DNA from: a virus
DNA length: 40,514 bases
IMG/VR virus record: IMGVR_UViG_3300022602_000205
Span: 1-40,514 of that record
Strand: one strand, 5' to 3'
The notes beneath the pieces were generated by a model, which did no database searches, was not told where the DNA came from, and saw only the letters and a list, made by a program, of their open reading frames with translations. This document shows, piece after piece, positions 2,489-30,737 of this stretch (the stretch's first letter is position 1; every line of letters begins with the position of its first letter). Position numbers and translations under genes: made by a program.

Positions 2489-2489
2489 A

Positions 2490-3323
2490 TTACTCACTAG
2501 GGGTTTCTCCTTCAAATCGTTTTAAGGCAGCCGCATGTTCTCCGGCACCTGTACGACTGTAACTTGGATTCATACCATTCATTTCTAAAATGTCATCGCG
2601 GATATTTTGGTTACGCTTTTCGATATTAATAACACGAACAAAGCTATTAGTAACAGCCGCAGTAAAATACGCAAAAGGATTGTCGGATTTCGATTCATCA
2701 AATTGTAGTCCTATCTGTGTAAGCTGTAAAATAGCTTGTCCTTTCATTTCATCGTTATATGTGTAGCCACGAACGTTACCGCGAGTGGCGTATCTCTCAC
2801 ATAACTTTAACATCATTCTAGCTAAGGTGTTAGTAATTTGGCCAGCATCTTTATCAAACCTGCCTTTGACTAAATCGCCCTTCCAATGGCTTTTGCCTAC
2901 ACAAATTAGTTCATCTTCGTCATTGAATTTCCAGTGTTGGAAAGGTGGAAAATTGACTTTGTCTCTATGGTCAGCAAGGCTTTTAGGATTTTTCTTACGA
3001 GTATTGTTAAGCGGAATGTGATCAAATGTCATAATACGGAATATTAAATCCGTTTTTGCTATTTTTTTGTAGTCTACTTCGCAGTCTGCTTGTTTAACCT
3101 TTTCACCTGCTTTTTTACGAGTTTGGTAATCCAAATCTCCTATGCGTTTAGCCCTATTACGCTTGGCTTCTGCTATAGTTCTAATGTTAATTTTGTCTAC
3201 GTTGGGCAAGATAATGTCATATTGATGATATTCTGGTTGGGTAAAAACACAATATGAACTTTTTGAACGATGTATTTCTAACAACATATCCTTGTTGTTT
3301 AGGTAATTTACTTTTGCTGTCAT
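2490..3323 (-). CDS. 55: gp55-like sigma factor for late transcription, with long N-terminal extension
   Basis: Phage-encoded sigma-like factor that would redirect host RNA polymerase to late promoters. The diagnostic part is the C-terminal half, roughly residues 190-260: YTYNDEM, then LQFDESKSDNPFAYFT, then a basic helix VINIEKRNQNIRDDILEMNG. This matches the sigma region 2-like core of T4 gp55. The protein has 277 residues against 185 in T4; the extra ~90-100 residues are N-terminal, Lys/Arg-rich and of unknown role, and include a GKSHWKGDLVKG segment that I recall from aquatic T4-like phages. The ATG at 3323 has GGAG nine bases upstream. The gene has its own consensus sigma70-type promoter, as expected of a factor needed before late genes switch on. 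The TATAAATA-like boxes in front of the tail genes are its likely targets. Confidence 0.88.
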   Translation of the reverse strand: MTAKVNYLNNKDMLLEIHRSKSSYCVFTQPEYHQYDIILPNVDKINIRTIAEAKRNRAKRIGDLDYQTRKKAGEKVKQADCEVDYKKIAKTDLIFRIMTFDHIPLNNTRKKNPKSLADHRDKVNFPPFQHWKFNDEDELICVGKSHWKGDLVKGRFDKDAGQITNTLARMMLKLCERYATRGNVRGYTYNDEMKGQAILQLTQIGLQFDESKSDNPFAYFTAAVTNSFVRVINIEKRNQNIRDDILEMNGMNPSYSRTGAGEHAAALKRFEGETPSE

Positions 3324-12518: not shown

Positions 12519-15500
12519 TGGCAAATAGTAATATTCCAACTGGAAACGGTCTTAGCGTAAATTTATTACCAGATTTTTATCAAACTACTGCTAATAAAAA
12601 ATTCTTACAGGCTACGATTGATCAATTATATCAACCTGGAACGTTAACAAAAACAACCGGTTATATTGGAAGAAGAAACGCAAAGGCAGCATCTGGACCA
12701 GATGTCTATGTAGCTGCCGCTGACGCAACACGTCGCCACTATCAATTAGAGCCTGGTATAGTTGTTAAAGATCCATTAGGTAATGTAACATTTTTTAAAG
12801 ATTATATTGATTATATTAATCAGATAGGTGTGTTTGGTGGTATTACTTCAAATCACGAACGTCTGAACAAACAAGAATTTTATTCTTGGGATCCACATAT
12901 CGACTGGGACAAATTTGTTAATTTTCAAAACTATTATTGGTTACCTTATGGTCCAGATCCAATAAAAATTTATGGTCATGCTAAAGGTGTTACTAGCACA
13001 TACACAGTAAATTTACAATTACAAGGCGATGTTAACGAATATTTGTTTACTCCTAACGGAATAACATTAAATCCTATTCTTAAATTATATAGAGGACAGA
13101 CTTACACTTTTGAAATTACTAGCCCGGGACATCCTTTTAGTATTAAAACTTCTCGTTCATTGGGAGTTCAAAATAGATATTTGATTCCTGGTATTGATAA
13201 CCACGGCGTAACTGCTGGAACAATTACATTTACTGTTCCTGATAATGCTCCAAATATTCTCTATTACCAAAGCGAAGCTGATTTACAAGTTGGTGGGGTC
13301 ATCGAAGTATTTGATATTCTCGAGTCTTCAATACTCGATGTTGAGAATGATATTCTTGGTAAAAAGACCTACGTATTATCAGACGGAACACCATTAAGTA
13401 ATGGTATGAAAGTTAGTTTCGGCACTAATGTAACTCCTTCAAATTACTCTACAGGGCAGTATTATGTTGAAGGTGTTGGTACTGGAATTAAATTAATTTT
13501 AGAATCTCTTTTAGAAATTGTAAACCCGTATACAACTGACAAATCTGTTGAATTTGATACTACTCCTTTTGATATAGACCCATTTAGTGATAGTATTGGG
13601 TTTGCCGGAGTAAAAGATTATATTGTAATCAATCGTGCTAGTCGAGACCGTAATCCTTGGTCGAGATACAATCGTTGGTTCCATAAAGATGTAATTAATT
13701 CCATTGCGAAATATAATAATACAGTACCTAATCTTGATCAATCAGGTCGAGCTATTAGACCAATCATTGAATTTGAAGCAGATTTAAAATTATTTAATTT
13801 AGGTACAATCGCAACTGTAGACACAAGTTTAATTGATGATTATACAACTGATGTATTTTCTACAATTGAAGGATCAATAGGATATAGTGTCGATGGTGTT
13901 AAATTAGTAGCTGGACAAAAAATAATATTTACAGCAGATTCCGATCCACTAGTTAAGAATAAAACATTTGAAGTATCGTTTATTAATATAAAAGGTAAGT
14001 CGCAAATTCATTTAACTGAAGTATCGTCTCCGTTAGTAAATCAAACAACTATTGTCCTAGAGGGTATCAAGAATCAAAGTCAGATGTACTGGTTTGACGG
14101 CACTACTTGGATTAAAGGTCAGCAAAAAACAAATATTAATCAACAACCTAAATTTGATGTAGTTGATAATAACGGTACAAGTTTTGGCAATGTATCGGTT
14201 TATAGCGGTACAACATTTAGCGGTACTGACATTTTTTCTTATAAAATAAATTCTTCTAGTTCTAATAAAGATACTGCTTTAGGATTTCCGTTAACATATC
14301 AAAATGTTAATAATATCGGGGATATTGTTTTTACTTTTAATCTCGCCATTGATTCGTTTACCTACAAAGTTAATTCACAAGTAGTTACTAAAAAAATTAA
14401 TGTAGGTTATCTGTCAGGACAGTCATATGGGGGAAATACTGTTTATACTAACGGGTGGAAAACTGCTAAAACTACTAACGTACAGGCAGCCATTCGTATA
14501 TACAAAAATTCCAATTTAACAAATAATTTTAAATTAGATATCTTTGATGACATTAATAATCTTAATGACTTAGTAGTTCGAGTATATGTCAATGGTACTA
14601 AACTTTTACCTACTACCTACCAATTAGTTGATGCTGGAAAATATAAAGAAATTGTTCTTAACACTCCTATTTTAACTACCGATCTATTAACAATCAAAGC
14701 ATTTGCGGCACAGCCAATTAATACTAATGGCTACTACGAGATGCCTATTAATTTACAAAATAATTCGTTAAACGATGATATGGTTGATTTTACTTTAGGT
14801 GAAGTAATTGATCATGTTAATTCTATTGTAGATAATGTATCAGGGTTCTCAGGAGTATTTCCAGGAGTTAGCAATTTAAGAGACCTGGGAGATATTTCTG
14901 CTTACGGAACTAAATTTGTACAGCATAGCGGTCCACTAAGTCTAGCGATGTACCATATTGCTTCTGAATCAAATAATATTATAAAAGCAATTGAAACCAG
15001 TCGAGATGACTACAATACATTTAAGCGAAACTTTTTAACTGTAGCAGTATCATTAGGTGTTGATACAGATCCAGTTAAACATGTTGAATTAATTTTACAA
15101 GAACTTAATAGTAACAAACCAACTACCGCTCCATATTATTTTAGTGATATGGTTCCTTATGGAGCAAATACAACCAGCGATCTTAAAGTAGTAGATCCAA
15201 GAATTAAAACTTATCCATTAAGTAATGTATTTTCGTTAGATACATTATCTAATAAAGCAGTTGGTGTCTACCTAACATCAAACGGTGTAAAAACACAATT
15301 AGTATATGGAAGAGATTATACATTTAGTACTCAAGCAACTGTTATAATAGATAACAGTGTGGTAATGTTAGCCGGCGATATAATTACTACAATCGAGTAT
15401 GATACTACTGATGGATGCTTTGTGCCAATGACTCCTACTAAGTTAGGCATGTGGCCAGCATATGTTCCGCAAATTTATCTAGACACAACACTATCTGCCC

Positions 15501-18500
15501 CACAAAAGATGATCCAAGGGCACGACGGTAGTGTTATTTTAGCATACAATGATTATCGAGATGACTTAATATTAGAATTAGAAAAAAGAATTTTTAATAA
15601 TATTAAAGTCAAATATGATCCAGCAATATTTGATATAACTGATATTGTTCCTGGATATAATAGAACTACAGATTATAGCATATCAGAATTTAATCAAGTA
15701 CTAGCCCCAAGTTTTTATAAATGGACCGGGTTTGTAGGTGCTGATTTTAGTAAGCCGTTAAGTTACGACCGTGCGAACCCATTTACATACAACTATAAAA
15801 ATAATACTTCGCCAACCGATACTCCGGTTCCTGGTTATTGGAGAGGAATATATCGTTGGATGCTAGACACTGATCGTCCACATCTTTGCCCATGGGAAAT
15901 GTTAGGATTTAGCCAAGAGCCTCAATGGTGGAAACAAGTGTATGGTCCAGCGCCATATACTAGCAATAATTTAATCTTATGGCAAGATTTAACTAACGGT
16001 ATTGTTCGTGAACCAGGTGTTCCTTCTAAAATTTTACCAAAATATATCCGACCATTTTTGATAGATCACATACCTGTTGATGAATCAGGCAATTTAATAA
16101 GTCCTCTTTTGTCAGGACTTGCTTCCGGTACATTAACACCAGATACAAGTGATAATTTTATATTCGGTGATGTAAGTCCAGTTGAGTCAGCATGGAGACG
16201 TAGTAGCTATTATCCTTTCAGTGTAATTATTACATCCTTACTATTAACTCCAGCAAAAACATTTGGATTACTGTTAGATCGATCACGTATTGTTCGTAAT
16301 CTAGCAGGACAATTAATTTATAGTGATACTGGAATTCATGTTAAACCAGCAGACATAAAGATACCAAGCATCTATTCAAGTGCTGAAAGAGTACAAACTG
16401 CTGGTATAGTTAACTGGGTAGTTGATTTAATTTTAAATTATATTTTTAGTAATAATTTAAATTCATATCAAACATATGCTAATGACCTAGTAAATATGTT
16501 ACCTCAGTTGAGCTATAGAGTAGGCGCATTTACAAATAAAAATCAGTTTAATTTGTTATTAGAAAGCAAAACTCCATTATCAATAGGCAATGTATTCATT
16601 CCTCAAGAAGATTATAATATATTTTTAAACACATCAAGTCCGACAGCTAAGTTAACTTATAGTGGTGTAATTATTACTAAAGTACCAACTGGCGGATATG
16701 AGATAAAAGGTTATAGCAGAACACAACCATATTTTAAATATTATGCTCCTATACAATCAGGAATTTCTATTAATGTTGGTGGAATCTCAGAAAACTTTGT
16801 AACATGGAATGCCGGGTTGGAATATGCTGCCGGGCAGGTAGTAAAGTATGGTAATTCATTTTATAGAACAGTAACAACAGTTACGGCAGGTTCACCATTT
16901 AATCCTTTGTCATTTGCTTCGTTGGGTAGTTTGCCAATTGTTGGCGGAGTTAACGCACAATTTAGACAAGCATGGGATAAGACTACTGCTCTAGTATTAC
17001 CATACAGTACTGTGTTATCTACAGTTCAAGAAGTTGTTGATTTCTTATTAGGCTATGGTGAATGGTTAAAAGATCAAGGATTTAAGTTTGACGAATTTAA
17101 TAATAACTTAAACACTGTAGCAAACTGGGAAACCAGTGCTAAAGAATTTATGTTCTGGACTACTCAAAATTGGAGTTCAGGACAAGACAAGTGGAGCGAA
17201 TGGCTACCAAATCAACCATATAACTATGGAACTATTGTTCGTTACAATGGTGATTATTATAGCGCAGTTTATAATATACCAGCGTTGGATATTTTTGATA
17301 TTTCGCAATGGACATTATTAGCTGGGTTAAGTAATGTTGGTGCAAGTGTTATAAGTCTAAGCCCTGGCGCTAACGGGCTGACATTTGTAACTAAACTCAC
17401 AGTCGTTGACGACATTAATAATCAATTCAATCCATATGAAATATTTAAAGTTGACGGAACACCAATACATTCTAATCAATTAGATAGTTACAGAACAGGC
17501 AACACAGTTACATATAGTCCTCGAGGCAATGATGGAATTTATTGTGCTAGCTTCTACTTAATACAAAACGAACATGTTGTTATTATAAACAATACTGATA
17601 TTTTTAACGATGTTATCTATAGCCCGACTAGCGGATATAGAAGAGAACGTATTAAATTGTCAGCCTATGTTACTACCAACTGGTATGGTGGTTTAGATAT
17701 TCCCGGATTTATTTTTGATCAGGCGAGTATTAAAAGTTGGCAACCATGGCAAGATTACAGCATGGGAGATGTTGTAGTATTTCAAGGATATTATTACAGC
17801 GCCAATTCATTTATTGCGGGTACATCTGCGTTTATGTCAGCAGACTGGACACAGTTGGCTAATAAACCTACCCCCCAGATACTGCCAAACTGGACTAATA
17901 TTGCTACACAATTTACAGACTTTTATAGTCTAGATGTTGACAGTGTTGATAGTGCCCAGCAAACAATGGGTCAGCATTTGATTGGATACCAAAAACGTCA
18001 GTATTTGAATAACATCATCCAAGACGATGTAAGCGAATTTAAATTCTTCCAAGGCATGATCCGTGAAAAAGGTACACAAAATGTCCTTAATAAATTGTTT
18101 GGGGTATTAAACAATGACTCAGCAGAAAGTTTGACTTTCTACGAAGAATGGGCGTTGCGTGTTGGCGAATACGGCGCATCTAGCGCATTTGAAAATATCG
18201 AATTTATTTTAGATGAAAAATTAGTTAAAAATAATCCACAAGGTATTGTATTAACACCTAGAATTAATAATAATATTAGCTCATTCTTAATACAACAATC
18301 ACCAAACGATGTATATTTAAAACCACTAGGATATAATTCTAATCCGTTTCCTGTTTTACAAAATTATCGTCCTTTGTTGAGAACTGCAGGCTATGTTAAT
18401 TCTGATGATGTAACATTTAGCCTAGGATCGATAGCTGATATTACTAGCCAAGATATAACTAAATTATCAAACGGCCAATATGTATGGTGTGCGTTTGAAG

Positions 18501-21500
18501 GTGCAAGTTGGAACATTTATAAATTTACAGACTTGTTGATTCGAGTAACTGGGGTTACTTACGATAGTAGTTCAAACACTGTAACAATTTCTACAGAAAA
18601 TATAGTACCACTTGCTGTTGGATCATATGTTGGGCTAGCACAAGTTTCTATTTTAAATGGATTTTATAAAGTAACTAGTGTAACATTAAATCAATTTACT
18701 ATATCAGCAACTATAGCAAACTTCCCAGTACCGTTTGCTCAAGCAGAACAGTTAGTAGTTTTTGGATTGCTTACACAACATGTTACTGGGTCAATTGACA
18801 ATCTTGATACATTAAATTTAAATCGTATAGCACCTGGCACACTAGTTTGGATTGACGATAGTGTTAATGGCAAGTGGGCATCATGGAAATATAATCCAAT
18901 CTATACTACTAAAACATTTGATACCTTTGATCAACAAGATGGACTTGCCTATGGTTCGGCTATGGCAATAAATGGCCAGGGTAATATTTTAGTAATCGGT
19001 AACTCTATCGGAACAGTTACAGTATATGATAGACCTGGTATTAAATTAAATTGGTCACAACGTATTGGTTTATCGCGTCCTTTTATTGCGTTTAATAATC
19101 AAGTACTACCAAGCCAAGTAGCTACAGTTTTAGCACTAAGCAATGATGGTACATGGCTAGCAGTAGGAAGTCCTACCGCAGGATATGCCGCAACCACTTG
19201 GAATCTTCAACGTAATAATGGTCAATATGATTTAGGAACATACAATACTAATGATATTGTGTTGTATAATCAACAGTATTATCAAGCAGTAACATCAGTA
19301 CCAGCAAACACAGCACCAGCAACTAATTCTATCTATTGGGAAAAAATTCCATATGTAGCAGTTGATCAAGTATCTGGGTCTAATTCAACTCTAGCAGGAC
19401 AAGGTGTTATTAGTTTATATAAAAAGGAACTTAATAACAGTTACACATTAGTTGAAACTATAGTAAGCCCAACTCCATCCGCTAATGAAAATTTTGGATC
19501 AGCAATTGCCTTTGGCAATAATACGATGTATGTTGCTGCATCTGGCTATAGTAGTAATACTGGTAGAGTTTATAAATTATCTTATAGTGTAACGCCTATT
19601 GTTAACGCGGCTTATAATCCTGTTGGTAGTAGTTCATCAACGCTAGTTGTTTCATCAACTGCTGGAATTAAAGCAGGCATGGTAGTAATTGGTAGCGGAT
19701 TTACTAAAGGACAAAAAGTATTTTCAGTCTTGACTAAGATTGTTTTTAATTTTAGCACTAATTTGTCAAAAGTAGTTGCTGGAATGACAATCACAGGTAC
19801 CGGAGTTCTTCCAAACTTTACAGTTGTTAGAGTTGGATCAGAAGTGTCATCGTCTAATATAACTACAAACTATGTTATCGCTCAAGGTTTCCAAAATATG
19901 GACACTAGTATAACACAGGTTGAATTTGGTGGAAATGCTTCATTGACTTTTGTAATTCAATCAATTGAAAATATAAACACAGTATTACTTGACAGCACTC
20001 CTGACAGCACACCAAGCGGATCTTTAGAATTTGCCTTAGCCGGTTGGGGATATGATTCGACTGAACTATATACAGGGGCTACTACAGGTAGCAATCTTGG
20101 AAGCTCAATTACTACTACCCAGGCCAATGATACGCTAGTTATTGCGTCTTCTGGAGGATCAGTTACTGGCACAGTTAGCATTTATAAAAATACAGGAACA
20201 GGTTTTACTCTCTTAGAATCTAAAACAGGAACTACTACTAATTTTGGTCAAAGTATTGCTTTATCAAATACAGGTTTGTATCTTGCCATAGCAGATGATA
20301 TAATTAGTACTCCGACAATTAGTCGTCAGGGAACGGTTGTTGTTTACAATTATACTGGAACAGGATATGCCAAGTATCAAGAACTAGTAAATCATAGACC
20401 AGAAACCGACGGACAATTTGGTAATAAAATTTCGTTCATGAACGACTATGACACGCTAGTAGTGTATAGTAAAAATGGAGATGTAACTAGTAGCACGTTG
20501 TTTGATGCTAATACAACACGTCTTTCTAATAGTCAAACATTATTTGGAAATCCATATGTTCTTGATGGAACATCAGCAGTTCATCCTCTTACAACTTTTG
20601 ATAAAAATTCTACATCATTTATAGTCAATGAGCAAAACAACGGCCGTGTTGATGTATATGATATGTATAATACAAAATGGGTATTCAGTGAAAGTCTATC
20701 AACTGATACACAGTTCCGCACTGGATATGGCAAGAGTGTTGTCGCTGGAAATAATCATATCCTAGTAAGCGAGCCATATGCTGTAGATGGAAATTATCGT
20801 TCAGGAATTATATATGACTATGGTAAATTACCTAACACATATTCTTGGACTATTGATCGTCAAGAAGTAGATTTGCCAGATGTTTCTAAAATTAAAAAAG
20901 CATTCTTATACAATAAATCTTCAGGAAAATTATTAAAATATTTAGATGTAATTGATCCGCTACAAGGAAAAATTGCTGGTCCTGCTGAAGAAGAAATCAA
21001 ATATAAAACATTTTATGATCCAGCAAGATATTCTCAAGGAACTGCTAGCGTAATCATTAATCCTGATAATCACTGGGCTGATCAACAAGTTGGTCAACTA
21101 TGGTGGAATTTAAGCACAGCTAAATTTTTAAATACACAATTTAACGATCCTGTATATAGAAACAATACATGGAATACATTAGCCACAGGTGCTAGTATTG
21201 ATATTTACGAATGGATATCTAGCAGTCTGTTGCCAAGTCAGTGGGATTCTCAAGCAGATACTCCAAGTGGTCTAGCAAAAGGTATCAGTGGTACAAGTTT
21301 ATACGGTGATACTGCTTACAGTGTTATACAAAAATATGATAACATAAGCAAGAAATTCATTAATACATATTTTTATTGGGTTAAAAATAAAAAAGTTATA
21401 CCAAATGTCAACGGCAGAAATATGGCTGCAAATGACGTTGCTAAACTGATAGCCGATCCTCGAGGACAGGCTTATGTTTGTTTAGCGATTACAGGCACGA

Positions 21501-24500
21501 ATTCTCTTAGTTTAATCAATGCTGGTCAATATTTAAAAGATACAGATGTAGTGCTATCTATCGAATATTGGACTATTGATAAAACAGATCAAAATGCTCA
21601 CACACAATGGAAATTAATTAGTAATGATACTATTGTTAATATTCCAGATAACATTGAACAAAAGTGGTTTGATAGTTTATGCGGCGCCGATCAAGCAGGT
21701 CGTGAAGTTCCGGATATTACTTTACCTCCTAAGTTGCGTTACGGTATTGAGAATCGCCCACGTCAAGGAATGTTTGTAAATCGTATTGAAGCATTGAAAG
21801 AATTCTTTGAACGAGTAAATGCTGATTTGATAACTCAACAAATCTGTGAATCAAAAGATATTTCAAATTTAGAAAAATTTGATCCAGTTCCAACAAAGAT
21901 TTCTGGAATGTTTGATTTAACATTTGACACTAATGACGAACTTCAGTATGCTAATGTTGGAACATTCACATTACCAAAATTAACACCGATAATTACTAAT
22001 GGCGTGATTACAGGCATCAATATCATCGATGGCGGAAAAGGATACGTTAATGCTCCATTCATTGAAATTTCAGGTGCTGGTAAAGGTGCCGTTGTTAAAT
22101 CAATAATCAACTCGATTGGCACATTAACTGGTGCTACAATTATTAATGGTGGCGAAGGATATACTGATAGTACCTTATGTACTGTACGAAGCTACTCTGC
22201 TTTGATATTATCTGATAGCACTTCAAATTATACTTGGAGTATATATTCATATGATTCAACAAATCATATTTGGTCTAGAACATTAACATTATCATACGAT
22301 GTTCGCAACTATTGGAAAAAAGTTGACTGGTATGGATCTTATACAGATTCCTCAGGAAAAATAATATTTACAGCAACACAATTTACTGCGGCGGATTATA
22401 CAGTTAATACATTTGCTGATTTAAATTCTTTAACAGATATATATTCTGAATTAGCAAATATTAAATCTAAATCAACTGGACAACTGGTTAAAGTTCTTAA
22501 TGGCAATGCCGGCAAGTGGGTTCTGTTGTATAGATATTCTACAGCAGTATCAGTTGACTGGACACAAACATATTATGTTGTTGGTATCCAAGAAGGAACA
22601 ATACAATTTAGCAATAGATTATACAGCTACCAAGGAACCGATGTTGGATATGATTCAAACGTATTTGATGGTGGTGAATTTGACATTCAAGCTAGAACAG
22701 AATTAAGAATTATCTTAAACACTCTTAAAGATAAAATTTTAATTGACGATCTCAAACAAAATTATTTAGATTTATTCTTCACAAGTGTTCGTTATGCTCA
22801 TAGCGAACAACCTTATATTGACTGGATATTTAAAACTAGTTTTGTTCGTGCTACTCATAACGTTGGATCATTTACACAACCAGTTAATTATCCAGTTGAT
22901 AATTTAAGTAATTTCCAAGATTACATTAATGAAGTTAAACCTTATAGAACTAAGGTAAGAGAATATATTAGTCAATATACTAATTCAGCAGTTCCTGACA
23001 ATAGTCCTAGTGCTATAACTGATTTTGATCTACAACCAAATTATGAAAATAATAAAATTGTACCAATTAATACAGTATATTCAAATAACCAGGTTACGTC
23101 ATCGGATCCAGCTATCCAGTTATATCCATGGAAATTTTGGCTTGACAATGTAGGTTTTGGAGTAGTTGATATAATAATTACTAACCAAGGTAGCAATTAT
23201 TTAACTCCACCGACTATACGTATCATTGGTGCTAGCGGTTCCGGAGCAGAGGCTAAGGCTTATATTACTAACGGAAAAGTGAATAGAATATCACTGATTA
23301 CTAATGGAACGGGTTATCTTTCAGCACCAAGAGTAATATTTGATGGTGGACTAGCAGTTGGAGGAACACCAGCTACCGGCGTGGCTATTATCGGAAATAG
23401 TGTTATTCGTTCTAATTTGATCGGTATGAAGTTTGATCGCGTAGATCAAACATATTATATTAACACACTTTCACAAACTGAAACATTTACGGGTTCAGGA
23501 TCACGATTACAGTTTCCATTAATTTGGGCTCCAGATGTTCGTGTTGGTGAATCAAGTGTAACATTTAATGGTGTGCCTGTCCTTAGAGAACTATACAAAT
23601 TAACGGTTGTTAAAACTAAGGTTTCGGGATATACACAATATTCAGGAAGTATTACATTTAATGTTGAAGCAACACCTCCAAAGAATACAACAGTTGTAGT
23701 AAATTATAAAAAAGATATTAGCATCTTAAATGCTACTGATAGAATACAATATTATTATAATCCTACATCTGGACAATTAGGTAAAGATTTATCGCAACTA
23801 ATGACAGGAGTTGACTACGGTGGAGTAGTTGTTAACGGTTTAGGATTTAACGTTAGCGGCGGCTGGGATGTAAGTCCTTTCTTAAGTGAAACATGGGACA
23901 GTAGAGATCCAACATTTGATGATTATTTTGTTCAAGTAGGAGCAAATAATCATGTATTTGTATTGCCGTATACTCCGGCAAATAATACAAGTATTAACAT
24001 TTATTATATAAAGAAAAATATCATATCATATAATTCAGATAATGCTACTACTAAGTATGAATTTGATCTTAATTGGTTAACACCGAGTGTTAATGTAACT
24101 ATCCCTGTAAATACAATTGGTATTCATACTACCTACACAGGGTCAAGTGTTGTTAATCCAGGAACCTTACTCAATGTTAATAGTACAACAGGCATCGTTC
24201 CTGGCATGGTGTTATCTGGATCAGGATTTAATAACAGACAAACAGTTGTTAGAGTTATTAATTCAACAACTATTAGTATTAGCAGTCCGCCAGATTCTAT
24301 TCCTTCTGGTTCTATAACATTTTCTAATATTGCCGGTAGCAATGTATTATCAGTAGCTAGCCTAACTGGTTTAAAGGTTGGCGATATTGTAACGGCTGCT
24401 GGATCAATATTTAATTTTGAAACAACTATTGCCGGTATTAATTTAACTGATGGCCATATTACATTAGACCAAATCATACTAACTAATATTCCAGATAATA

Positions 24501-27337
24501 CTACTATTACATTTACAAGAACACTAGTCGAGCCAACAGATGTAATTATTAATAGTAATGGTTCTATTTTATTATCAGAACCATATCCGACAGGAACCAC
24601 AATTAATATTACAGGAACATCTGCTCCTTTAAGATTAGATGATCCTTATTATAATTTATATGACGGCACAACAGTACAACCAAACGGAAGAAAATCTGCT
24701 CCAGCAGGCACAATTATGGCAACTCCGGTTGTTGGACAGTCTGTAATAACAGATTCAATAGATGGCGGTGCCGCCCTAATTGTTTCATTTGCTACAGTTG
24801 ACGATGGCGGTACAGCTGGATCAACATTTATAGATGCGATCGACGGTACAACAACTAATAACGCAATTACAAATGTTATCGAGATTCCTGATACGTTTGT
24901 TGTAAACAGCGGTGATGAGTTTATTTTAAGACAAAGCACTAGTGACGGATCAATACCAATACCTGATACTGATTTTGACACAGCAATTTCAGGCGGTGAC
25001 ATTTCATACTCAACAGCAACAGGTTTAGCCGCTGACGATATTGTTCTTGACGGCGACGGTTTTACAACACCAACAAGTAGTCCAGCACCAGAAGAAGTTG
25101 TGCCAGGACAAGTAGTTGATACACTAGCAGTTAAAGTATTTGATCGAGCACAATCAGGATCGGCTGATATTCGTGTTAATAGCCATATAACTGACGGAAT
25201 TACTAATAAATTTTCAATCGGACAAATTCCTAATAGTTTAAGATCTGTAATTGTTAAACTTGGAGTATCGATAAAAACTTATGGTACTTTAGCAGATTAT
25301 ACAATTGATTATTCTAATGGTTTAGTGATTTTTAATTCTACACCAACTGCTAATCAAATCGTTAGCATATATAGTATTGGATTTAATGGAAGCAATATTT
25401 TAGATATCGATCATTATGTGGGCGATAACCGCACTGTTGAATTTATAACTAAAGCTAGCTGGATAACACCTGTAACAAGTCTAGTATATGTAGATGGCAT
25501 AGCAACATCGGTTGAATTATTTAAAACTGATAGTTCTTATGATTTTACCGGGGCCATTGGAATAAGATTTGCTGTTCCACCGGCTGCAGGAAAACTAATC
25601 AATTATATTATTGTTAGTGGAAGCCAACAAAAGTTTGCTATAACAAAAACAGAAACAGTACCAACTGATGGCAGATCAGCCAGTGCACCTTACACACTAC
25701 AATACCCAATCGGTAATTCTTTACCAAACGAATCAAGTATGATAGTGCGTGTTGATCAAAACATTTTACAAGCACCAAATAACAGTTATTTCACAATCTC
25801 TAATAATAAACTGACTTATACGATTGACCCAACAAAAGCATTACCTGGCACACAGGAAGTTAGTAATATTTTTGTTTATGCTAACGGTGATCTGTTAGTT
25901 GTTGGTAGAGACTATACAGTTGACCCATCTGGGATTTCTGTTAAGATTAATAAAAATACATATAACCAATACTCTGGAGGTAAACTGTTAGTTAGCCTAG
26001 CTGGTAAATCTGGTTATACATATAATCAAAATACTGGACAAATTACATTTGCGCAGTCTTATGACAATACGCACACAGTTGAAGTAATTAGTTCTTACAT
26101 CCATGATGTTCTCGATATTCAACGAACATCAATAGTTTATACATCTTCTGTATCATTAACTCCAGATACTGTTGAGTTTTATACATATAATGAAATCGGC
26201 GGGGGTATAATACATTTAGATCGTCCTATTATTAACAATCAATATGTTTGGGTAACTAAAAATACAACTTTATTAACGCCAAGTATTGATCATAAACTAA
26301 ACGAAGACCTTCAAACAATTACTCTATCTAAACCGTTAGCAGTAAACGATACTATTACATTGATGACCTTTGGTAGTAATGTGTTACCAGCATCTGGTAT
26401 TTCTTATATGATGTTTAAAGATATGTTAAATCGTGTAACTTATAAACGATTAAATCTTAATAAGAGAACTAGACTTGCTGAAGACTTGCGCTGGAATGAT
26501 ACGACTATTACAGTTGACGATGCTAGTAATTTAGATGTACCAAATAAAACTAATAATCGCCCAGGTATTATTGAAATCCGAGGAGAACGTATCGAATACT
26601 TTACACTTAACGGAAATGTATTAGGACAGCTACGCAGAGGAACATTAGGAACTGGGGTTTATAATTTAAATAGATCAGGTACATATGTACAAGGCATTGG
26701 AGCAAGTGAAACAATACCTTACAATGATACTGTTACAACAGAATTAATTACTTCAAGTGGCGGCACAAATATTGACCTTGGGTTTGTTCCAGCTAATGCT
26801 AATGAAATAGAAGTATTTGTTGGCGGATATAATTCTTTAGGTGACTGGAAACCAAATACATCTTATTCATTGGGTGATATTGTAAATATTGGACCATACA
26901 CGTATAGATGTACAACAGCTAATACTAGTTCGTCAGTGTTTGAAAAAGATCAGGCAAATTGGCATTGGTTCGTTGGAAACATTCGTTTAAAGAAACAAGC
27001 ATACAGTGTGTTTAATATAAACAATGGTCCATATAGTCCTACTGGTGACGTTAGCTTCCCAGCAGATTTTACTGTTGATGGAACCACTGCTAAGATAACA
27101 TTAACCAATCCATTAAGTTTTGGTACAAGAGTAACAGTAGTAAAACAAACTGGTATAGCATGGGATAGTATTACTAACATCTTAAATGATACTGGATCTA
27201 TTGCTAATTTTATTAAAGCCGCTCCAGGCGTATGGTATACTGAGTATAAGACAATAAGTAATACAAAGGGTGCGTCAACATTTGACAGCGCAACTAACAC
27301 GTTTGACAGTGGAAATTCAACATTTGATCAAGGATAA
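12518..27337 (+). CDS. giant 4939-residue baseplate/tail protein at the gp7 position, multidomain
   Basis: One uninterrupted frame of 14.8 kb. It follows gp6 where T4 has gp7 (1032 residues), and the N-terminus (FYSWDPHIDWDKFVNFQNYYWLP after ~125 residues, split here only in description) looks like a wedge anchor; gp7 homology itself is inference. Domains by eye: cupredoxin-like, ~168-268 (GQTYTFEI, PGHPFSIKT, ILYYQSEADLQVGG). CBM5/12-like modules at ~1429-1478, 1550-1603, 1739-1784, 2226-2278, 4774-4819. Seven-bladed FG-GAP-like propeller, ~2140-2775, with two insertions. GxGY repeats, ~3157-3217 and 3546-3610, flanking a segment with PYIDWIFKTSFVRATHNVG and EVKPYRTKVREYIS. GMVxxGSGF-type modules, ~2366-2510 and 3875-3940. 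Near the C-terminus TITVDDASNLDVPN and IIEIRGERIEYF, then three TFD units. No signal peptide or enzyme motif is seen. Base use resembles the neighbours. Structural role is likely; receptor or polysaccharide binding is inferred. Confidence 0.8.
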   Translation: MANSNIPTGNGLSVNLLPDFYQTTANKKFLQATIDQLYQPGTLTKTTGYIGRRNAKAASGPDVYVAAADATRRHYQLEPGIVVKDPLGNVTFFKDYIDYINQIGVFGGITSNHERLNKQEFYSWDPHIDWDKFVNFQNYYWLPYGPDPIKIYGHAKGVTSTYTVNLQLQGDVNEYLFTPNGITLNPILKLYRGQTYTFEITSPGHPFSIKTSRSLGVQNRYLIPGIDNHGVTAGTITFTVPDNAPNILYYQSEADLQVGGVIEVFDILESSILDVENDILGKKTYVLSDGTPLSNGMKVSFGTNVTPSNYSTGQYYVEGVGTGIKLILESLLEIVNPYTTDKSVEFDTTPFDIDPFSDSIGFAGVKDYIVINRASRDRNPWSRYNRWFHKDVINSIAKYNNTVPNLDQSGRAIRPIIEFEADLKLFNLGTIATVDTSLIDDYTTDVFSTIEGSIGYSVDGVKLVAGQKIIFTADSDPLVKNKTFEVSFINIKGKSQIHLTEVSSPLVNQTTIVLEGIKNQSQMYWFDGTTWIKGQQKTNINQQPKFDVVDNNGTSFGNVSVYSGTTFSGTDIFSYKINSSSSNKDTALGFPLTYQNVNNIGDIVFTFNLAIDSFTYKVNSQVVTKKINVGYLSGQSYGGNTVYTNGWKTAKTTNVQAAIRIYKNSNLTNNFKLDIFDDINNLNDLVVRVYVNGTKLLPTTYQLVDAGKYKEIVLNTPILTTDLLTIKAFAAQPINTNGYYEMPINLQNNSLNDDMVDFTLGEVIDHVNSIVDNVSGFSGVFPGVSNLRDLGDISAYGTKFVQHSGPLSLAMYHIASESNNIIKAIETSRDDYNTFKRNFLTVAVSLGVDTDPVKHVELILQELNSNKPTTAPYYFSDMVPYGANTTSDLKVVDPRIKTYPLSNVFSLDTLSNKAVGVYLTSNGVKTQLVYGRDYTFSTQATVIIDNSVVMLAGDIITTIEYDTTDGCFVPMTPTKLGMWPAYVPQIYLDTTLSAPQKMIQGHDGSVILAYNDYRDDLILELEKRIFNNIKVKYDPAIFDITDIVPGYNRTTDYSISEFNQVLAPSFYKWTGFVGADFSKPLSYDRANPFTYNYKNNTSPTDTPVPGYWRGIYRWMLDTDRPHLCPWEMLGFSQEPQWWKQVYGPAPYTSNNLILWQDLTNGIVREPGVPSKILPKYIRPFLIDHIPVDESGNLISPLLSGLASGTLTPDTSDNFIFGDVSPVESAWRRSSYYPFSVIITSLLLTPAKTFGLLLDRSRIVRNLAGQLIYSDTGIHVKPADIKIPSIYSSAERVQTAGIVNWVVDLILNYIFSNNLNSYQTYANDLVNMLPQLSYRVGAFTNKNQFNLLLESKTPLSIGNVFIPQEDYNIFLNTSSPTAKLTYSGVIITKVPTGGYEIKGYSRTQPYFKYYAPIQSGISINVGGISENFVTWNAGLEYAAGQVVKYGNSFYRTVTTVTAGSPFNPLSFASLGSLPIVGGVNAQFRQAWDKTTALVLPYSTVLSTVQEVVDFLLGYGEWLKDQGFKFDEFNNNLNTVANWETSAKEFMFWTTQNWSSGQDKWSEWLPNQPYNYGTIVRYNGDYYSAVYNIPALDIFDISQWTLLAGLSNVGASVISLSPGANGLTFVTKLTVVDDINNQFNPYEIFKVDGTPIHSNQLDSYRTGNTVTYSPRGNDGIYCASFYLIQNEHVVIINNTDIFNDVIYSPTSGYRRERIKLSAYVTTNWYGGLDIPGFIFDQASIKSWQPWQDYSMGDVVVFQGYYYSANSFIAGTSAFMSADWTQLANKPTPQILPNWTNIATQFTDFYSLDVDSVDSAQQTMGQHLIGYQKRQYLNNIIQDDVSEFKFFQGMIREKGTQNVLNKLFGVLNNDSAESLTFYEEWALRVGEYGASSAFENIEFILDEKLVKNNPQGIVLTPRINNNISSFLIQQSPNDVYLKPLGYNSNPFPVLQNYRPLLRTAGYVNSDDVTFSLGSIADITSQDITKLSNGQYVWCAFEGASWNIYKFTDLLIRVTGVTYDSSSNTVTISTENIVPLAVGSYVGLAQVSILNGFYKVTSVTLNQFTISATIANFPVPFAQAEQLVVFGLLTQHVTGSIDNLDTLNLNRIAPGTLVWIDDSVNGKWASWKYNPIYTTKTFDTFDQQDGLAYGSAMAINGQGNILVIGNSIGTVTVYDRPGIKLNWSQRIGLSRPFIAFNNQVLPSQVATVLALSNDGTWLAVGSPTAGYAATTWNLQRNNGQYDLGTYNTNDIVLYNQQYYQAVTSVPANTAPATNSIYWEKIPYVAVDQVSGSNSTLAGQGVISLYKKELNNSYTLVETIVSPTPSANENFGSAIAFGNNTMYVAASGYSSNTGRVYKLSYSVTPIVNAAYNPVGSSSSTLVVSSTAGIKAGMVVIGSGFTKGQKVFSVLTKIVFNFSTNLSKVVAGMTITGTGVLPNFTVVRVGSEVSSSNITTNYVIAQGFQNMDTSITQVEFGGNASLTFVIQSIENINTVLLDSTPDSTPSGSLEFALAGWGYDSTELYTGATTGSNLGSSITTTQANDTLVIASSGGSVTGTVSIYKNTGTGFTLLESKTGTTTNFGQSIALSNTGLYLAIADDIISTPTISRQGTVVVYNYTGTGYAKYQELVNHRPETDGQFGNKISFMNDYDTLVVYSKNGDVTSSTLFDANTTRLSNSQTLFGNPYVLDGTSAVHPLTTFDKNSTSFIVNEQNNGRVDVYDMYNTKWVFSESLSTDTQFRTGYGKSVVAGNNHILVSEPYAVDGNYRSGIIYDYGKLPNTYSWTIDRQEVDLPDVSKIKKAFLYNKSSGKLLKYLDVIDPLQGKIAGPAEEEIKYKTFYDPARYSQGTASVIINPDNHWADQQVGQLWWNLSTAKFLNTQFNDPVYRNNTWNTLATGASIDIYEWISSSLLPSQWDSQADTPSGLAKGISGTSLYGDTAYSVIQKYDNISKKFINTYFYWVKNKKVIPNVNGRNMAANDVAKLIADPRGQAYVCLAITGTNSLSLINAGQYLKDTDVVLSIEYWTIDKTDQNAHTQWKLISNDTIVNIPDNIEQKWFDSLCGADQAGREVPDITLPPKLRYGIENRPRQGMFVNRIEALKEFFERVNADLITQQICESKDISNLEKFDPVPTKISGMFDLTFDTNDELQYANVGTFTLPKLTPIITNGVITGINIIDGGKGYVNAPFIEISGAGKGAVVKSIINSIGTLTGATIINGGEGYTDSTLCTVRSYSALILSDSTSNYTWSIYSYDSTNHIWSRTLTLSYDVRNYWKKVDWYGSYTDSSGKIIFTATQFTAADYTVNTFADLNSLTDIYSELANIKSKSTGQLVKVLNGNAGKWVLLYRYSTAVSVDWTQTYYVVGIQEGTIQFSNRLYSYQGTDVGYDSNVFDGGEFDIQARTELRIILNTLKDKILIDDLKQNYLDLFFTSVRYAHSEQPYIDWIFKTSFVRATHNVGSFTQPVNYPVDNLSNFQDYINEVKPYRTKVREYISQYTNSAVPDNSPSAITDFDLQPNYENNKIVPINTVYSNNQVTSSDPAIQLYPWKFWLDNVGFGVVDIIITNQGSNYLTPPTIRIIGASGSGAEAKAYITNGKVNRISLITNGTGYLSAPRVIFDGGLAVGGTPATGVAIIGNSVIRSNLIGMKFDRVDQTYYINTLSQTETFTGSGSRLQFPLIWAPDVRVGESSVTFNGVPVLRELYKLTVVKTKVSGYTQYSGSITFNVEATPPKNTTVVVNYKKDISILNATDRIQYYYNPTSGQLGKDLSQLMTGVDYGGVVVNGLGFNVSGGWDVSPFLSETWDSRDPTFDDYFVQVGANNHVFVLPYTPANNTSINIYYIKKNIISYNSDNATTKYEFDLNWLTPSVNVTIPVNTIGIHTTYTGSSVVNPGTLLNVNSTTGIVPGMVLSGSGFNNRQTVVRVINSTTISISSPPDSIPSGSITFSNIAGSNVLSVASLTGLKVGDIVTAAGSIFNFETTIAGINLTDGHITLDQIILTNIPDNTTITFTRTLVEPTDVIINSNGSILLSEPYPTGTTINITGTSAPLRLDDPYYNLYDGTTVQPNGRKSAPAGTIMATPVVGQSVITDSIDGGAALIVSFATVDDGGTAGSTFIDAIDGTTTNNAITNVIEIPDTFVVNSGDEFILRQSTSDGSIPIPDTDFDTAISGGDISYSTATGLAADDIVLDGDGFTTPTSSPAPEEVVPGQVVDTLAVKVFDRAQSGSADIRVNSHITDGITNKFSIGQIPNSLRSVIVKLGVSIKTYGTLADYTIDYSNGLVIFNSTPTANQIVSIYSIGFNGSNILDIDHYVGDNRTVEFITKASWITPVTSLVYVDGIATSVELFKTDSSYDFTGAIGIRFAVPPAAGKLINYIIVSGSQQKFAITKTETVPTDGRSASAPYTLQYPIGNSLPNESSMIVRVDQNILQAPNNSYFTISNNKLTYTIDPTKALPGTQEVSNIFVYANGDLLVVGRDYTVDPSGISVKINKNTYNQYSGGKLLVSLAGKSGYTYNQNTGQITFAQSYDNTHTVEVISSYIHDVLDIQRTSIVYTSSVSLTPDTVEFYTYNEIGGGIIHLDRPIINNQYVWVTKNTTLLTPSIDHKLNEDLQTITLSKPLAVNDTITLMTFGSNVLPASGISYMMFKDMLNRVTYKRLNLNKRTRLAEDLRWNDTTITVDDASNLDVPNKTNNRPGIIEIRGERIEYFTLNGNVLGQLRRGTLGTGVYNLNRSGTYVQGIGASETIPYNDTVTTELITSSGGTNIDLGFVPANANEIEVFVGGYNSLGDWKPNTSYSLGDIVNIGPYTYRCTTANTSSSVFEKDQANWHWFVGNIRLKKQAYSVFNINNGPYSPTGDVSFPADFTVDGTTAKITLTNPLSFGTRVTVVKQTGIAWDSITNILNDTGSIANFIKAAPGVWYTEYKTISNTKGASTFDSATNTFDSGNSTFDQG
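18935..20845 (+). repeat. seven FG-GAP-like propeller blades encoded within the giant gene
   Basis: Seven units repeat the pattern FGxSIAxSxxGxxLxVG...GxVxVYxx. They start near bases 18950 (YGSAMAINGQGNILVIG), 19121 (VATVLALSNDGTWLAVG), 19490 (FGSAIAFGNNTMYVAAS), 20092 (LGSSITTTQANDTLVIAS), 20239 (FGQSIALSNTGLYLAIA), 20414 (FGNKISFMNDYDTLVVYS) and 20721 (YGKSVVAGNNHILVSEP). Blade 2 holds a CBM5/12-like insertion, and a GMVxxGSGF-type insertion separates blades 3 and 4. Seven is the blade number of integrin-alpha-type propellers. Confidence 0.6.
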
Positions 27338-27342
27338 TAAAG

Positions 27343-28437
27343 ATGTCGCAACAATTAATTAACGTAGGATCATCAACTAATGATGGTACCGGAGATAGTT
27401 TACGCAGTGGTGCTGTAAAAATAAATGCTAATTTTACAGAATTATATTCGCAAGTTGGATATACACTGCCGTCAGCTACTGCTTCAGCTATAGGCGGTGT
27501 GGCAATTCCGTCTGTAGCAACTAGCGGTCTTAATAATACTAATGGAGTGATTAGTCTTGCTACAGCATCAACTAGTCAGTTAGGAGGAGTTAAAGTAGAT
27601 GGAACAACTGTTACTATTAGTAACGGTGTTATAAGTGCTCCAGCGGCATCACCATATACACTACCAACAGCATCGACTAGTATTAAAGGCGGTGTTAAAG
27701 TAGATGGAACAACTATTACCATTGACGGAAATGGTGTTATTAGTAGCGGTGTTAATAATTATATTTTGCCAGTAGCGACTACTTTACAACTAGGCGGAGT
27801 TAAAGTCGATGGTTCTACTATTACAATTAATGCCGGTGTAATTTCAGCTAATTATTCTTCTTATAATTTACCAACTGCAAGTACAACACAGTTAGGCGGT
27901 GTTAAGATTGATGGAACTACAATTACATTAAATGGTAGCAATCAACTAGTTGCTACTGCGTACAGTTTACCAACAGCAACTACATCTGTATTAGGCGGAG
28001 TTAAAGTCGACGGGTCGACAATTACAATCAGTGGCGGTACTATCAGTGCTAACGGGTTAAGTAATCGCTCAACTGTGTCAACAACTACAGCAAGTATCAC
28101 AGCTACTTCTAGCGCAACGGCAACAGTCGCAGCCGCTAAAGGTTATGCTTTGTATAGCATCCAAGTATCGGCAGGTGCGTGGGTCACAGTTTATACAAGT
28201 TCAACTGCGCAAAGTAATGATGCCAGCAGAAGTATATCAATGGATCCGACTCCAGGTAGCGGAGTGATTGCTGAAGCGATATCTACAACAGCAACTACAA
28301 CTTATTTTACACCTGCTGTATACGGATACAATGCTGATAATAGTCCTACTACAAATATGTATTTGAAAATTTATAATAACAGCGGTAGTACTACTGCTAT
28401 CACAGTTACAGTAACATATCTTAAATTAGAAGCATAA
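27343..28437 (+). CDS. tail fibre protein with five LGGVKVDGTTITI repeats
   Basis: Fibre of 364 residues. The N-terminus LINVGSSTNDGTGDSLRSGA followed by VKINANFTELYSQVG is the attachment motif common in fibres of T4-like aquatic phages. Residues ~50-235 are about 34-residue repeats with the core GGVKVDGTTITI...NGVISA. The C-terminal ~130 residues (YALYSIQVSAGAWVTVYTSS, then DPTPGSGVIAEAI, then YLKIYNNSGSTTAITVTVTY) form a separate beta domain that I recall from other marine phage virion proteins. It starts five bases after the giant gene stop with AAGG ahead of the ATG, and its stop is one base before the peptidase ATG. Likely a trimeric shaft with a tip domain; receptor unknown. Confidence 0.72.
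   Translation: MSQQLINVGSSTNDGTGDSLRSGAVKINANFTELYSQVGYTLPSATASAIGGVAIPSVATSGLNNTNGVISLATASTSQLGGVKVDGTTVTISNGVISAPAASPYTLPTASTSIKGGVKVDGTTITIDGNGVISSGVNNYILPVATTLQLGGVKVDGSTITINAGVISANYSSYNLPTASTTQLGGVKIDGTTITLNGSNQLVATAYSLPTATTSVLGGVKVDGSTITISGGTISANGLSNRSTVSTTTASITATSSATATVAAAKGYALYSIQVSAGAWVTVYTSSTAQSNDASRSISMDPTPGSGVIAEAISTTATTTYFTPAVYGYNADNSPTTNMYLKIYNNSGSTTAITVTVTYLKLEA
27583..28030 (+). repeat. five in-frame ~100-bp fibre repeats
   Basis: The GGVK(V/I)DG(T/S)T core begins at bases 27583, 27688, 27793, 27895 and 27994, i.e. spacings of 105, 105, 102 and 99 bases, all multiples of three. A degenerate sixth unit (AIGGVAIPSV) precedes them. The DNA diverges at third positions while the protein is kept, so this is a selected coding repeat rather than a fresh duplication. 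Confidence 0.85.
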
Positions 28438-28438
28438 T

Positions 28439-30079
28439 ATGGCAACTACCCAGACTCCATTAGATACTATTCTAACAATTAGTCTTTATCTTAGACGAGA
28501 TAAGCATGATAACGGCATGACCCTTCAAGAATATGCTGATGCGGTTATTGCCGGAACGCAACCAATATTAGGACACGATGAATATGTATATCAATTTGGC
28601 GCTATCAAAGACGAAGCAATACTTGTAGCAGATTGGGCAGTAGATAACGGATTATCGGTATTTGAGGCAAATATAAATTCTGCTACAGTAAAATTATCAG
28701 GAACAGTAGATCAATTTAATAATATTTTCAATATAATATTAGAAACAGTTACAGAAGATAATAGAACGTACATAAAACACGAAAACAGTATAACTATACC
28801 TACAGAAATTAATGCTGTCGTCCAAGCAGTATTAGGATTGGATAATACTGTACAGTTTACACATGACGCTATTCTTGACGCAGATTATCAACCATCTATA
28901 GATCCAAATTTAATCTCTAGTCCTAGCCCAGTTGACCTAGCATTGGCATATAAATTTCCAAGAGCTCCCGGTAGTGATCTAGTTCAAGGAAAAGGTGCCT
29001 GTGTTGGTATCATTGAATTAGGCGGTGGCTGGACTACACAAAATTTAACTAGTACATTTAGTCGAATCAACCAACCAAATCCTACAGTAGTTGATGTCAG
29101 TGTCGACGGCGGAGTTAATGACGGTGGTGCTGATGTTAATTCTAGCGGCGAAGTAATGCTTGATATCTATTGTGTCGGAGCAGTAGCGCCCGGGGCTAAA
29201 ATTGCTATGTATTTTGCTCCTAATACATTTCAAGGTTTTATAGATACTGTTGCTTCAGCTACGAACGATACTGTGAATAATCCTAGTGTGATTAGTATTA
29301 GCTGGGGAACTACTGATGTTTATTGGACACTTTACAATTCACTAGCACCTTTTGAAACAGCCTTCCAAGCCGCAGTTGTAAAAGGAATCACAGTATTTGT
29401 TGCTGCAGGCGATTATGGTGTTAGAGCAGTCAGTAGCGATGCTACTTATACAGTACAGTATCCAGCAACAAGCCCATATGTAGTCTGTACTGGCGGTACT
29501 GTTGTTTCAATTAATAATGACTATTCAATTGCTAGCGAAGTTCCTTGGGGAACATCGGGTGGATCATATGCCGCCGGCGGCGGAGTAAGCACAATCTTTA
29601 GTGTACCTAGTTGGCAAACAGGTCTAAGTAGTAAAGTATATCCGGGAGGAACAGTAACTCCTTTATCTGGTCGAGGAATTCCTGATGTTTCGGCTATGGC
29701 AACCGGCTATACATTTTATTACGGTTCTCCAAATTATACAGGAACATTTCTTGGAACTAGCGCAACCGCTCCGTTGTTGGCAGGACTAATGGCTAGATTA
29801 AATCAACTTTCTGGAAAACATATTGGATTTGTCAACAGTGATTGGTATTCTATCGGTGCTACAGCATTTAATGACCAAACAACTGGCGATAATCACGGCG
29901 GAAATAGTGTAGGATATATGGCTACTGCAGGCTGGGATGCTGCATCTGGATTAGGTAGTCCGATAGCAACAGAAATATATAAATTTTACAAAATAGGAAC
30001 AACATTTCCTAAAGCTAACTACGGGTTTAGGCCTACTACAGGGCAAACGTACCCTAGACAAACTACAGGTGCCCGATAA
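28439..30079 (+). CDS. S53 family (sedolisin/kumamolisin-like) serine-carboxyl peptidase with prodomain
   Basis: Endopeptidase with a subtilisin-like fold using a Ser-Glu-Asp triad, usually acid-active and made as a zymogen. It has 546 residues. Residues ~1-150 match the pro-kumamolisin activation domain (ISLYLRR, VKLSGTVDQFNNIFNI, IPTEINAVVQAVLGLDN). The catalytic domain runs ~165-515: GACVGIIELGGGW; SGEVMLDIYCVGAVAPGAKI with E238 and D242; ISISWG; VFVAAGDYG with D325 (oxyanion aspartate); GRGIPDVSA; GTSATAPLLAGL with S441 (nucleophile). Calcium-site residues fit at D479 (NDQTTGDN) and D500 (GWDAASGLGSP). All key residues are present, so it should be active. No secretion signal is visible. 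Residues 516-546 (FRPTTGQTYPRQ) are an extra tail. It is translationally linked to the upstream fibre (TAATATG) in a late unit, suggesting a virion or lysis-time role; the substrate is unknown. Confidence 0.9.
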   Translation: MATTQTPLDTILTISLYLRRDKHDNGMTLQEYADAVIAGTQPILGHDEYVYQFGAIKDEAILVADWAVDNGLSVFEANINSATVKLSGTVDQFNNIFNIILETVTEDNRTYIKHENSITIPTEINAVVQAVLGLDNTVQFTHDAILDADYQPSIDPNLISSPSPVDLALAYKFPRAPGSDLVQGKGACVGIIELGGGWTTQNLTSTFSRINQPNPTVVDVSVDGGVNDGGADVNSSGEVMLDIYCVGAVAPGAKIAMYFAPNTFQGFIDTVASATNDTVNNPSVISISWGTTDVYWTLYNSLAPFETAFQAAVVKGITVFVAAGDYGVRAVSSDATYTVQYPATSPYVVCTGGTVVSINNDYSIASEVPWGTSGGSYAAGGGVSTIFSVPSWQTGLSSKVYPGGTVTPLSGRGIPDVSAMATGYTFYYGSPNYTGTFLGTSATAPLLAGLMARLNQLSGKHIGFVNSDWYSIGATAFNDQTTGDNHGGNSVGYMATAGWDAASGLGSPIATEIYKFYKIGTTFPKANYGFRPTTGQTYPRQTTGAR

Positions 30080-30128: not shown

Positions 30129-30737
30129 ATGCAGAGTAAAGACGCAACTGGAATTCATATAGAAGGTCATATTAAGATCTTTGATCCCGTTTCTAAAGAA
30201 GTTTATATTAATAAACGTAATGCTATTCACTATGAAAATATGAGCGTTGCTCTTGCTAATAGTCTAGCTAATAGCGGTAAGGGATTTGTTTATCAAATGG
30301 CATTTGGCAACGGTGGCACTAGCATCGACCCTACTGGTATTATTACGTATCTAACACCAAACACTAGCGGAACAAATGCTAGTTTATACAATCAAACATA
30401 TACTAAAGTCATTGATCCTAATACTAGTGTTAATATGGATCCAACTCGTAATTTTACAGAACCTCGTCACGTGACAGGAACAAATTATACTGATATATTC
30501 TGTACTTGTTTATTAGATTACGGTGAACCAAGTGGTCAGAATGCCTATGACACTACAGCCAGCGGTGAAAGCACTTATGTATTTGATGAATTAGGATTAA
30601 AAAGTTATAGTGCCACAGGCGATAGTTTATTGTTAACTCATGTAATCTTTCACCCTGTACAGAAATCATTGAATCGATTAATACAAATTGACTATACAGT
30701 ACGTATCCAGTCGTTAACTGGCCTAGTAGGAGTTTAA
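30129..30737 (+). CDS. virion structural protein of unknown role
   Basis: I do not recognise a named T4 equivalent. The protein has 202 residues, is soluble-looking, and has no signal peptide or membrane segment. Notable segments are GHIKIFDPVSKEVYINKRNA near the N-terminus, FVYQMAFGNGGTSIDPTGII (about 53-73), and a C-terminal block VIFHPVQKSLNRLIQIDYTV, which looks strongly constrained and which I recall from conserved virion proteins of cyanophage-like myoviruses. It is the first gene of a late unit and ends three bases before the collar fibre ATG. The context suggests a fibre-attachment or baseplate protein. Confidence is high that the gene is real, low for its function. Confidence 0.6.
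   Translation: MQSKDATGIHIEGHIKIFDPVSKEVYINKRNAIHYENMSVALANSLANSGKGFVYQMAFGNGGTSIDPTGIITYLTPNTSGTNASLYNQTYTKVIDPNTSVNMDPTRNFTEPRHVTGTNYTDIFCTCLLDYGEPSGQNAYDTTASGESTYVFDELGLKSYSATGDSLLLTHVIFHPVQKSLNRLIQIDYTVRIQSLTGLVGV

Follow-up and report, generated by a model that had tools for sequence, protein, structure and literature searches.

The stretch of DNA analysed here, hereafter the window, is a 40.5-kb fragment (40,514 nt) of a tailed-phage genome taken from an IMG/VR virus record. The features relevant to the present analysis, all of them on the plus strand, are the following:

27343..28437, plus strand: tail fibre of 364 aa, with a T4 gp9/gp10-like N-terminus, repeats and a C-terminal adaptor domain (Pfam, PHROG)
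28075..28434, plus strand: adaptor domain, the last 120 aa of the fibre (phrog_15343, unknown function, E 1e-61)
28439..30079, plus strand: S53 sedolisin/kumamolisin-like serine-carboxyl peptidase, 546 aa (ORF, Pfam and PDB searches)
28463..28846, plus strand: Pro-kumamolisin activation domain, residues 9-136 (PF09286, E 2e-10)
28916..29977, plus strand: catalytic domain, about residues 160-513 (1t1e and kumamolisin-As alignments)
29150..29152, plus strand: E238, catalytic Glu (kumamolisin alignment; invariant)
29162..29164, plus strand: D242, catalytic Asp (kumamolisin alignment; invariant)
29411..29413, plus strand: D325, oxyanion-hole Asp (kumamolisin alignment; invariant)
29759..29761, plus strand: S441, catalytic Ser of GTSA (kumamolisin alignment; invariant)
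29996..30076, plus strand: C-terminal tail GTTFPKANYGFRPTTGQTYPRQTTGAR, residues 520-546, with its core F523-R540 at 30005-30058; proposed docking tail
30129..30737, plus strand: next gene, a 202-aa protein (PHROG match to phrog_11259, function unknown)

The N-terminus of the fibre is of the baseplate type (PF07880, E 3.2e-6; phrog_958/677, baseplate wedge), and a single nucleotide separates its stop codon from the start codon of the sedolisin (TAA-T-ATG); the other neighbours of the latter are baseplate-wedge, hub and collar-domain proteins. Both the coupling to the upstream fibre and the location in a tail operon had been pointed out in the initial annotation, made from the DNA letters alone, and both hold. 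Elsewhere in the window, an ORF of 4939 aa (12518-27337), matching phrog_10938 (virion structural protein), lies between a gp6-like wedge protein and the fibre, while the minus strand at 6-3323 encodes SbcC-/SbcD-like nuclease subunits and a late sigma factor, divergent from the tail operon.

The sedolisin ORF is read as a single frame without interruption, the opposite strand being stop-rich. Its best PDB match is the kumamolisin zymogen 1t1e, over the full length (phmmer E 4.4e-87, residues 10-513), followed in the ranking by other S53 structures (sedolisin and tripeptidyl-peptidase 1); Peptidase_S8 (PF00082), a related family of the same clan, matches residues 245-459 (E 1.8e-14), and the profile search that the initial annotation had named as a check on its proposed S53 zymogen returns the activation domain PF09286. 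As far as homology can tell, the ORF is confirmed to encode a full S53 peptidase provided with its prodomain and with an intact catalytic tetrad. Indeed, the residues cited in favour of a working enzyme, namely E238, D242, D325 and S441 together with the calcium-site aspartates D479 and D500, align with those of kumamolisin and are invariant in 41 out of 41 complete phage relatives, the tetrad being kept down to about 45% identity. A dN/dS of about 0.12-0.13 with respect to the nearest relatives shows that purifying selection acts on the gene. By eye, no signal peptide can be seen; an AF2 model of the protein obtained from 14 sequences has a mean pLDDT of 52, too low for use.

The possibility, raised beforehand, of a lone acquisition in one assembly fails, as the family recurs at the same slot in many contigs: a first search of IMG/VR yielded 6 contigs with relatives of 67-77% identity in the same slot, an alignment query yielded 23 loci, and altogether same-slot S53 relatives occur in more than 20 IMG/VR contigs; these loci include many near-duplicates, the contigs are for the most part fragmentary, and distinct sequences are counted where so stated. 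The distinct S53 partners found behind adaptor fibres are 45, and 41 of them start exactly 1 nt past the fibre stop. Among cultured phages no match was obtained, either by tblastn of the sedolisin or by megablast of the region. Because the phage alignment retrieved no relatives from bacterial and archaeal genomes, the bacterial S53 set was gathered with a kumamolisin query (a partial sequence taken from the 1t1e alignment); in the resulting catalytic-domain tree, the phage S53 proteins are separated from the 37 bacterial ones sampled by a fully supported branch.

About a dozen phage sedolisins (407-416 aa; L031, L036, L041, L052, L055, L068, L070, L083 and others) are devoid of a prodomain and form a single group in this tree, retaining the catalytic tetrad, the calcium aspartates and the tail. 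In two loci (L003 and L004), a sedolisin cassette with a collagen-like fibre is found outside any tail operon, its neighbours appearing by eye to be DnaK, ClpS, ClpX and radical-SAM proteins. No psbA gene (PF00124) was present in 16 of the larger contigs, most contigs being fragments, so that a cyanobacterial host is not indicated for these phages.

The domain which closes the fibre, about 120 residues long, is shared at 50-63% identity with the window's copy by fibres whose remainder mostly fails to align. Upstream of sedolisins, the fibre builds ending in this adaptor are gp9/10-like, collagen-like or other, and the adaptor is their sole common part; in a redundant set of 122 matches, it always lies 0-4 aa from the fibre stop (122/122), and in 101 cases exactly 1 nt separates that stop from the start of the following ORF. 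AF2 predicts the adaptor to be a beta-sandwich (mean pLDDT 95.7), and the structural neighbours of the model are cyanophage fibre C-termini. Among solved structures no confident relative was found, the best being 8qpg, the turret of the archaeal virus HFTV1 (Foldseek E 1.2e-3, TM 0.46-0.48); VIA-align comparison with solved structures gave Z under 7 throughout, perhaps a mere common arrangement, and a PDB search by sequence returned no relative. The HFTV1 turret protein also bears an enzyme-like head, and the resemblance of the modelled adaptor to it appears too weak for a claim of kinship.

Adaptor fibres are also found without any neighbouring partner (L097, L040, L093, L069 and the phage S-CRES2). 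L097 is syntenic with the window: a phrog_11259 gene (82% identical) lies directly behind its adaptor fibre, and the sedolisin is absent there. W36, Y40, D49, R52 and E67 are invariant residues of the adaptor. The loss of conserved residues that had been predicted for partner-less adaptors was not borne out; the same invariant residues are kept, so these residues may serve something else.

In the initial annotation the sedolisin itself was the finding; it is real, but this account proved incomplete: next to a shared domain of the fibre tip, at least three kinds of partner replace one another, and the enzyme is one of them. The 76 distinct genes that follow the adaptor comprise 45 S53 peptidases, 19 S8 subtilases and 5 members of a third family, the rest being small or unrelated. 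The S8 proteins keep Asp/His/Ser, save for a Glu in place of Asp in D8_L009, and are found in the slot, 1 nt behind the fibre, in the marine cyanophages S-RSM4, S-H9-1, S-CREM1, S-MbCM7 and S-CAM1. An S8 cassette is likewise present in the cultured phage S-WAM2. Members of the third family consist of a large protein, with no Pfam match in the single one scanned, and of a small overlapping protein; like the S8 partners, they mostly begin 1 nt past the adaptor fibre. On an adaptor tree built on few columns, parsimony requires 16 or more changes in the type of partner, and L050, an S8 cassette, is nested in a supported group (99*) of S53 adaptors.

The C-terminal extension, to which the initial annotation had drawn attention, does matter, as it carries a tail common to S8 subtilases and to small non-protease proteins. 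The common motif is RPxxGxxYPR, present in S53, in S8 and in the small proteins paired with the third family; in the window it reads RPTTGQTYPR (residues 531-540, 6 aa before the end of the sedolisin). The C-terminus of the phage sedolisins reads GTTFPKANYGFRPTTGQTYPRQTTGAR or a close variant of it, with YPR at most 20 aa from the end in 39 of the 41 complete sequences, the remaining two having RPATGQTYAR; the tail is found in 14/15 complete S8 partners (for example RPTSGQVYPR and RPTTGHIFPR) and in none of 73 bacterial S53 proteins. The large protein of the third family is without it, and the small overlapping protein behind ends in RPGTGQLYPR or RPSSGQLYPR. In both protease families a second aromatic-Pro pair precedes RP at fixed spacing, yielding the full bipartite pattern [FYW]P-x6-RP-x2-G-x2-YPR, matched by 33 S53 and by 20/34 S8 proteins and by none of the 226 ORFs of the bacterial S53 loci; the small tagged proteins share its second half only. 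A sortase-like LPXTG reading of RPxTG was rejected, no hydrophobic segment being visible by eye behind the motif.

The association of tail and adaptor is recovered also when the tail alone is looked for. In the first 121 sequences (1282 ORFs) the motif occurs in 46 proteins, all of them S53, S8 or small cassette proteins, against a shuffle expectation of 0.33. IMG/VR was scanned blindly, without reference to adaptor or protease, for DNA that encodes RPx[ST]GQxYPR, which gave 42 loci; the motif is at the end of an ORF in 34, with a same-strand upstream adaptor in 20 of these and in 17/17 of the C-terminal loci having at least 2.8 kb of upstream sequence. Nearly all the loci with an adaptor show it followed by a tagged protease, or by an untagged large protein and a small tagged one; in L136 the tag is borne by a 50-aa ORF located farther downstream. 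When the fixed Gln was dropped from the pattern, IMG/VR yielded 66 loci, 19 of them with the adaptor and mostly S8. A pattern shifted by one base from the reading register served as negative control, and in its 16 loci neither an adaptor nor an S53 or S8 protein was present. A further tagged family, ending in NTRPTTGLMYPRVRTRRRG, is seen in L272, L277, L299, L301 and others, in loci without upstream sequence to show an adaptor.

The pairing of adaptor and partner is found by sequence also in the cultured phages S-SCSM1, S-RSM4, S-H9-1 and S-CREM1; bench work therefore need not await an uncultured host. For S-SCSM1, the published description mentions 45 proteins of purified virions detected by mass spectrometry (PMC9602691), and in its GenBank record the adaptor fibre SSCSM1_231 and the third-family protein which follows, SSCSM1_232, are annotated as "virion protein", labels that presumably reflect this detection; the 80-aa protein coming after SSCSM1_232 ends in RPATGQMYPRFNK and is annotated without the virion label. 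In the complete genome of S-CRES2, a 59-aa protein ending in NRPVSGLVYPRLVG is encoded behind a 286-aa protein, away from the partner-less adaptor; since about one chance match per such genome is expected with the loose pattern used, this distant protein is only suggestive as a partner of the adaptor.

Gene order, the conserved domain and tail, the swapping of partners, the intact active sites and the purifying selection are observed features of this arrangement, and the reading that we prefer, with a probability of roughly 0.7, is that the tail docks the sedolisin on the tip of a baseplate-anchored fibre, where a protein of the host surface would be digested. The fibre, in the window with its gp9/gp10-like baseplate N-terminus, would offer as a socket the 120-aa beta-sandwich predicted at its end, the start of the protease gene being found 1 nt on; the protease would offer the bipartite tail that it has in common with other adaptor partners and that is absent from bacterial sedolisins. 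During tail assembly the tail would dock on the adaptor, so that the protease would be carried at the fibre tip of the virion; after removal of the prodomain it would cut a surface protein of the host, for which an S-layer, pilin, outer-membrane or slime protein is our guess. Such a cut may clear the way for adsorption, or fix it, as a protein-cutting counterpart of the action of a tailspike depolymerase. Docking, the position of S53 members on the virion, activation, peptidase activity, working pH and substrate are what we infer here, and the main worry concerns pH, as characterised sedolisins work at acid pH; a search of the literature by sample identifier returned no lake pH. That the enzyme is bound to the virion, one of the options listed in the initial annotation, is likely.

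A wider proposal is favoured on balance, namely that aquatic tailed phages possess a plug-and-socket device at the fibre tip, with a beta-sandwich socket placed on diverse fibres and a short C-terminal plug placed on unrelated partners (S53, S8, and small tagged subunits bringing a large untagged protein), which would be exchanged like tool heads; surface proteolysis would then be a swappable host-range trait, and the constancy of the socket would be what allows phages to swap partners.

The tight coupling to the fibre gene could also be explained by a maturation protease, cutting the fibre or some other protein of the tail while the latter is being assembled, the prodomain implying a regulated activation, the adaptor acting as recognition site and the tail being an element of substrate recognition or self-cleavage. 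This role, also considered in the initial annotation, is disfavoured by the swapping of partners and by the adaptor fibres lacking a protease, and we hold it unlikely: the slot is also taken by S8 enzymes and by non-protease proteins bearing the same tail, adaptor fibres exist without any protease nearby, the syntenic contig L097 has no sedolisin at that place, and about a dozen of the phage S53 members have no prodomain to remove. In T-even phages the gene behind the fibre encodes a tip adhesin (gp38 is described in PMC12892980 as the fibre-tip protein which binds the receptor), and the slot resembles this gp37/gp38 order; this, and the third partner family in which no enzyme domain is recognised, would fit a receptor-binding protein that has merely the look of a protease, its fold serving adhesion and its catalysis being secondary or absent. 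Such a possibility appears quite improbable, given that none of the 41 complete phage S53 proteins, down to about 45% identity, has lost a tetrad residue or a calcium aspartate, and that Asp/His/Ser is kept in nearly all S8 partners. An enzyme acting off the virion, released at lysis to degrade proteins of the host or of competitors, or to free the progeny from debris, would agree with the apparent lack of a signal peptide and with the position of the gene among late structural genes; the common tail, the strict pairing with a fibre domain and the annotation as virion protein of the S-SCSM1 partner in the same slot all speak against it, and its probability is very low.

As to its relationships, the sedolisin with its cassette can be compared with the following known systems. 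With the kumamolisin/sedolisin family S53 (MEROPS clan SB) the phage protein shares prodomain, catalytic domain, E/D/D/S tetrad and calcium aspartates; unlike the bacterial members, the phage ones are found in tail operons behind a fibre, bear the tail, form a group apart in the tree and in some cases have no prodomain. The S8 peptidases of T4-like cyanophages (phrog_9158, "unknown function"; T4-GC_292) occupy the same slot behind an adaptor fibre and carry the same tail, but belong to another peptidase family with an Asp/His/Ser triad; they are known from marine cyanophages, whereas the S53 members are unmatched in cultured phages. In T-even phages a fibre gene (gp37) is likewise directly followed by that of a swappable tip protein (gp38), a likeness of gene order; in contrast to gp38, each adaptor partner is an enzyme or a unit of two proteins, proposed to dock by a C-terminal peptide on a conserved beta-sandwich. 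Tailspike depolymerases are likewise thought to act as enzymes on the cell surface from the tail, but the sedolisin is a protease rather than a polysaccharide-cutting enzyme, and a separate polypeptide. Among the papers searched, none links sedolisins or kumamolisins to phage virions, the matches being incidental. The cassette suggests a role for phrog_15343 (as adaptor), for phrog_9158 (as S8 partner) and for many small hypothetical cyanophage proteins; if the tail binds the adaptor, this would explain how surface-digesting enzymes are exchanged without rebuilding the fibre, and would provide a natural peptide tag of about 20 residues for the display of proteins on phage tails.

The S8 proteins of cyanophages present some variations. 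S-SCSM1 (L238, 4577-8812) has an S8-like domain embedded in a virion protein of 1411 aa labelled "baseplate wedge", which has neither adaptor nor tail, and in P-SSM2 an S8 protein (PSSM2_297) lies behind a different small fibre, likewise without tail. In S-H9-1 (L008, 504-7410) two cassettes occur in tandem, a fibre with a third-family protein and a small tagged protein being followed by a fibre with an S8 protease. In S-MbCM7 (L011, 5302-8226) the S8 partner continues past the tail motif with what appear by eye to be an alpha/beta-hydrolase (esterase)-like domain and a cupredoxin-like end, and extra C-terminal domains are found also on the partners of AG-345-P14 and S-H9-1.
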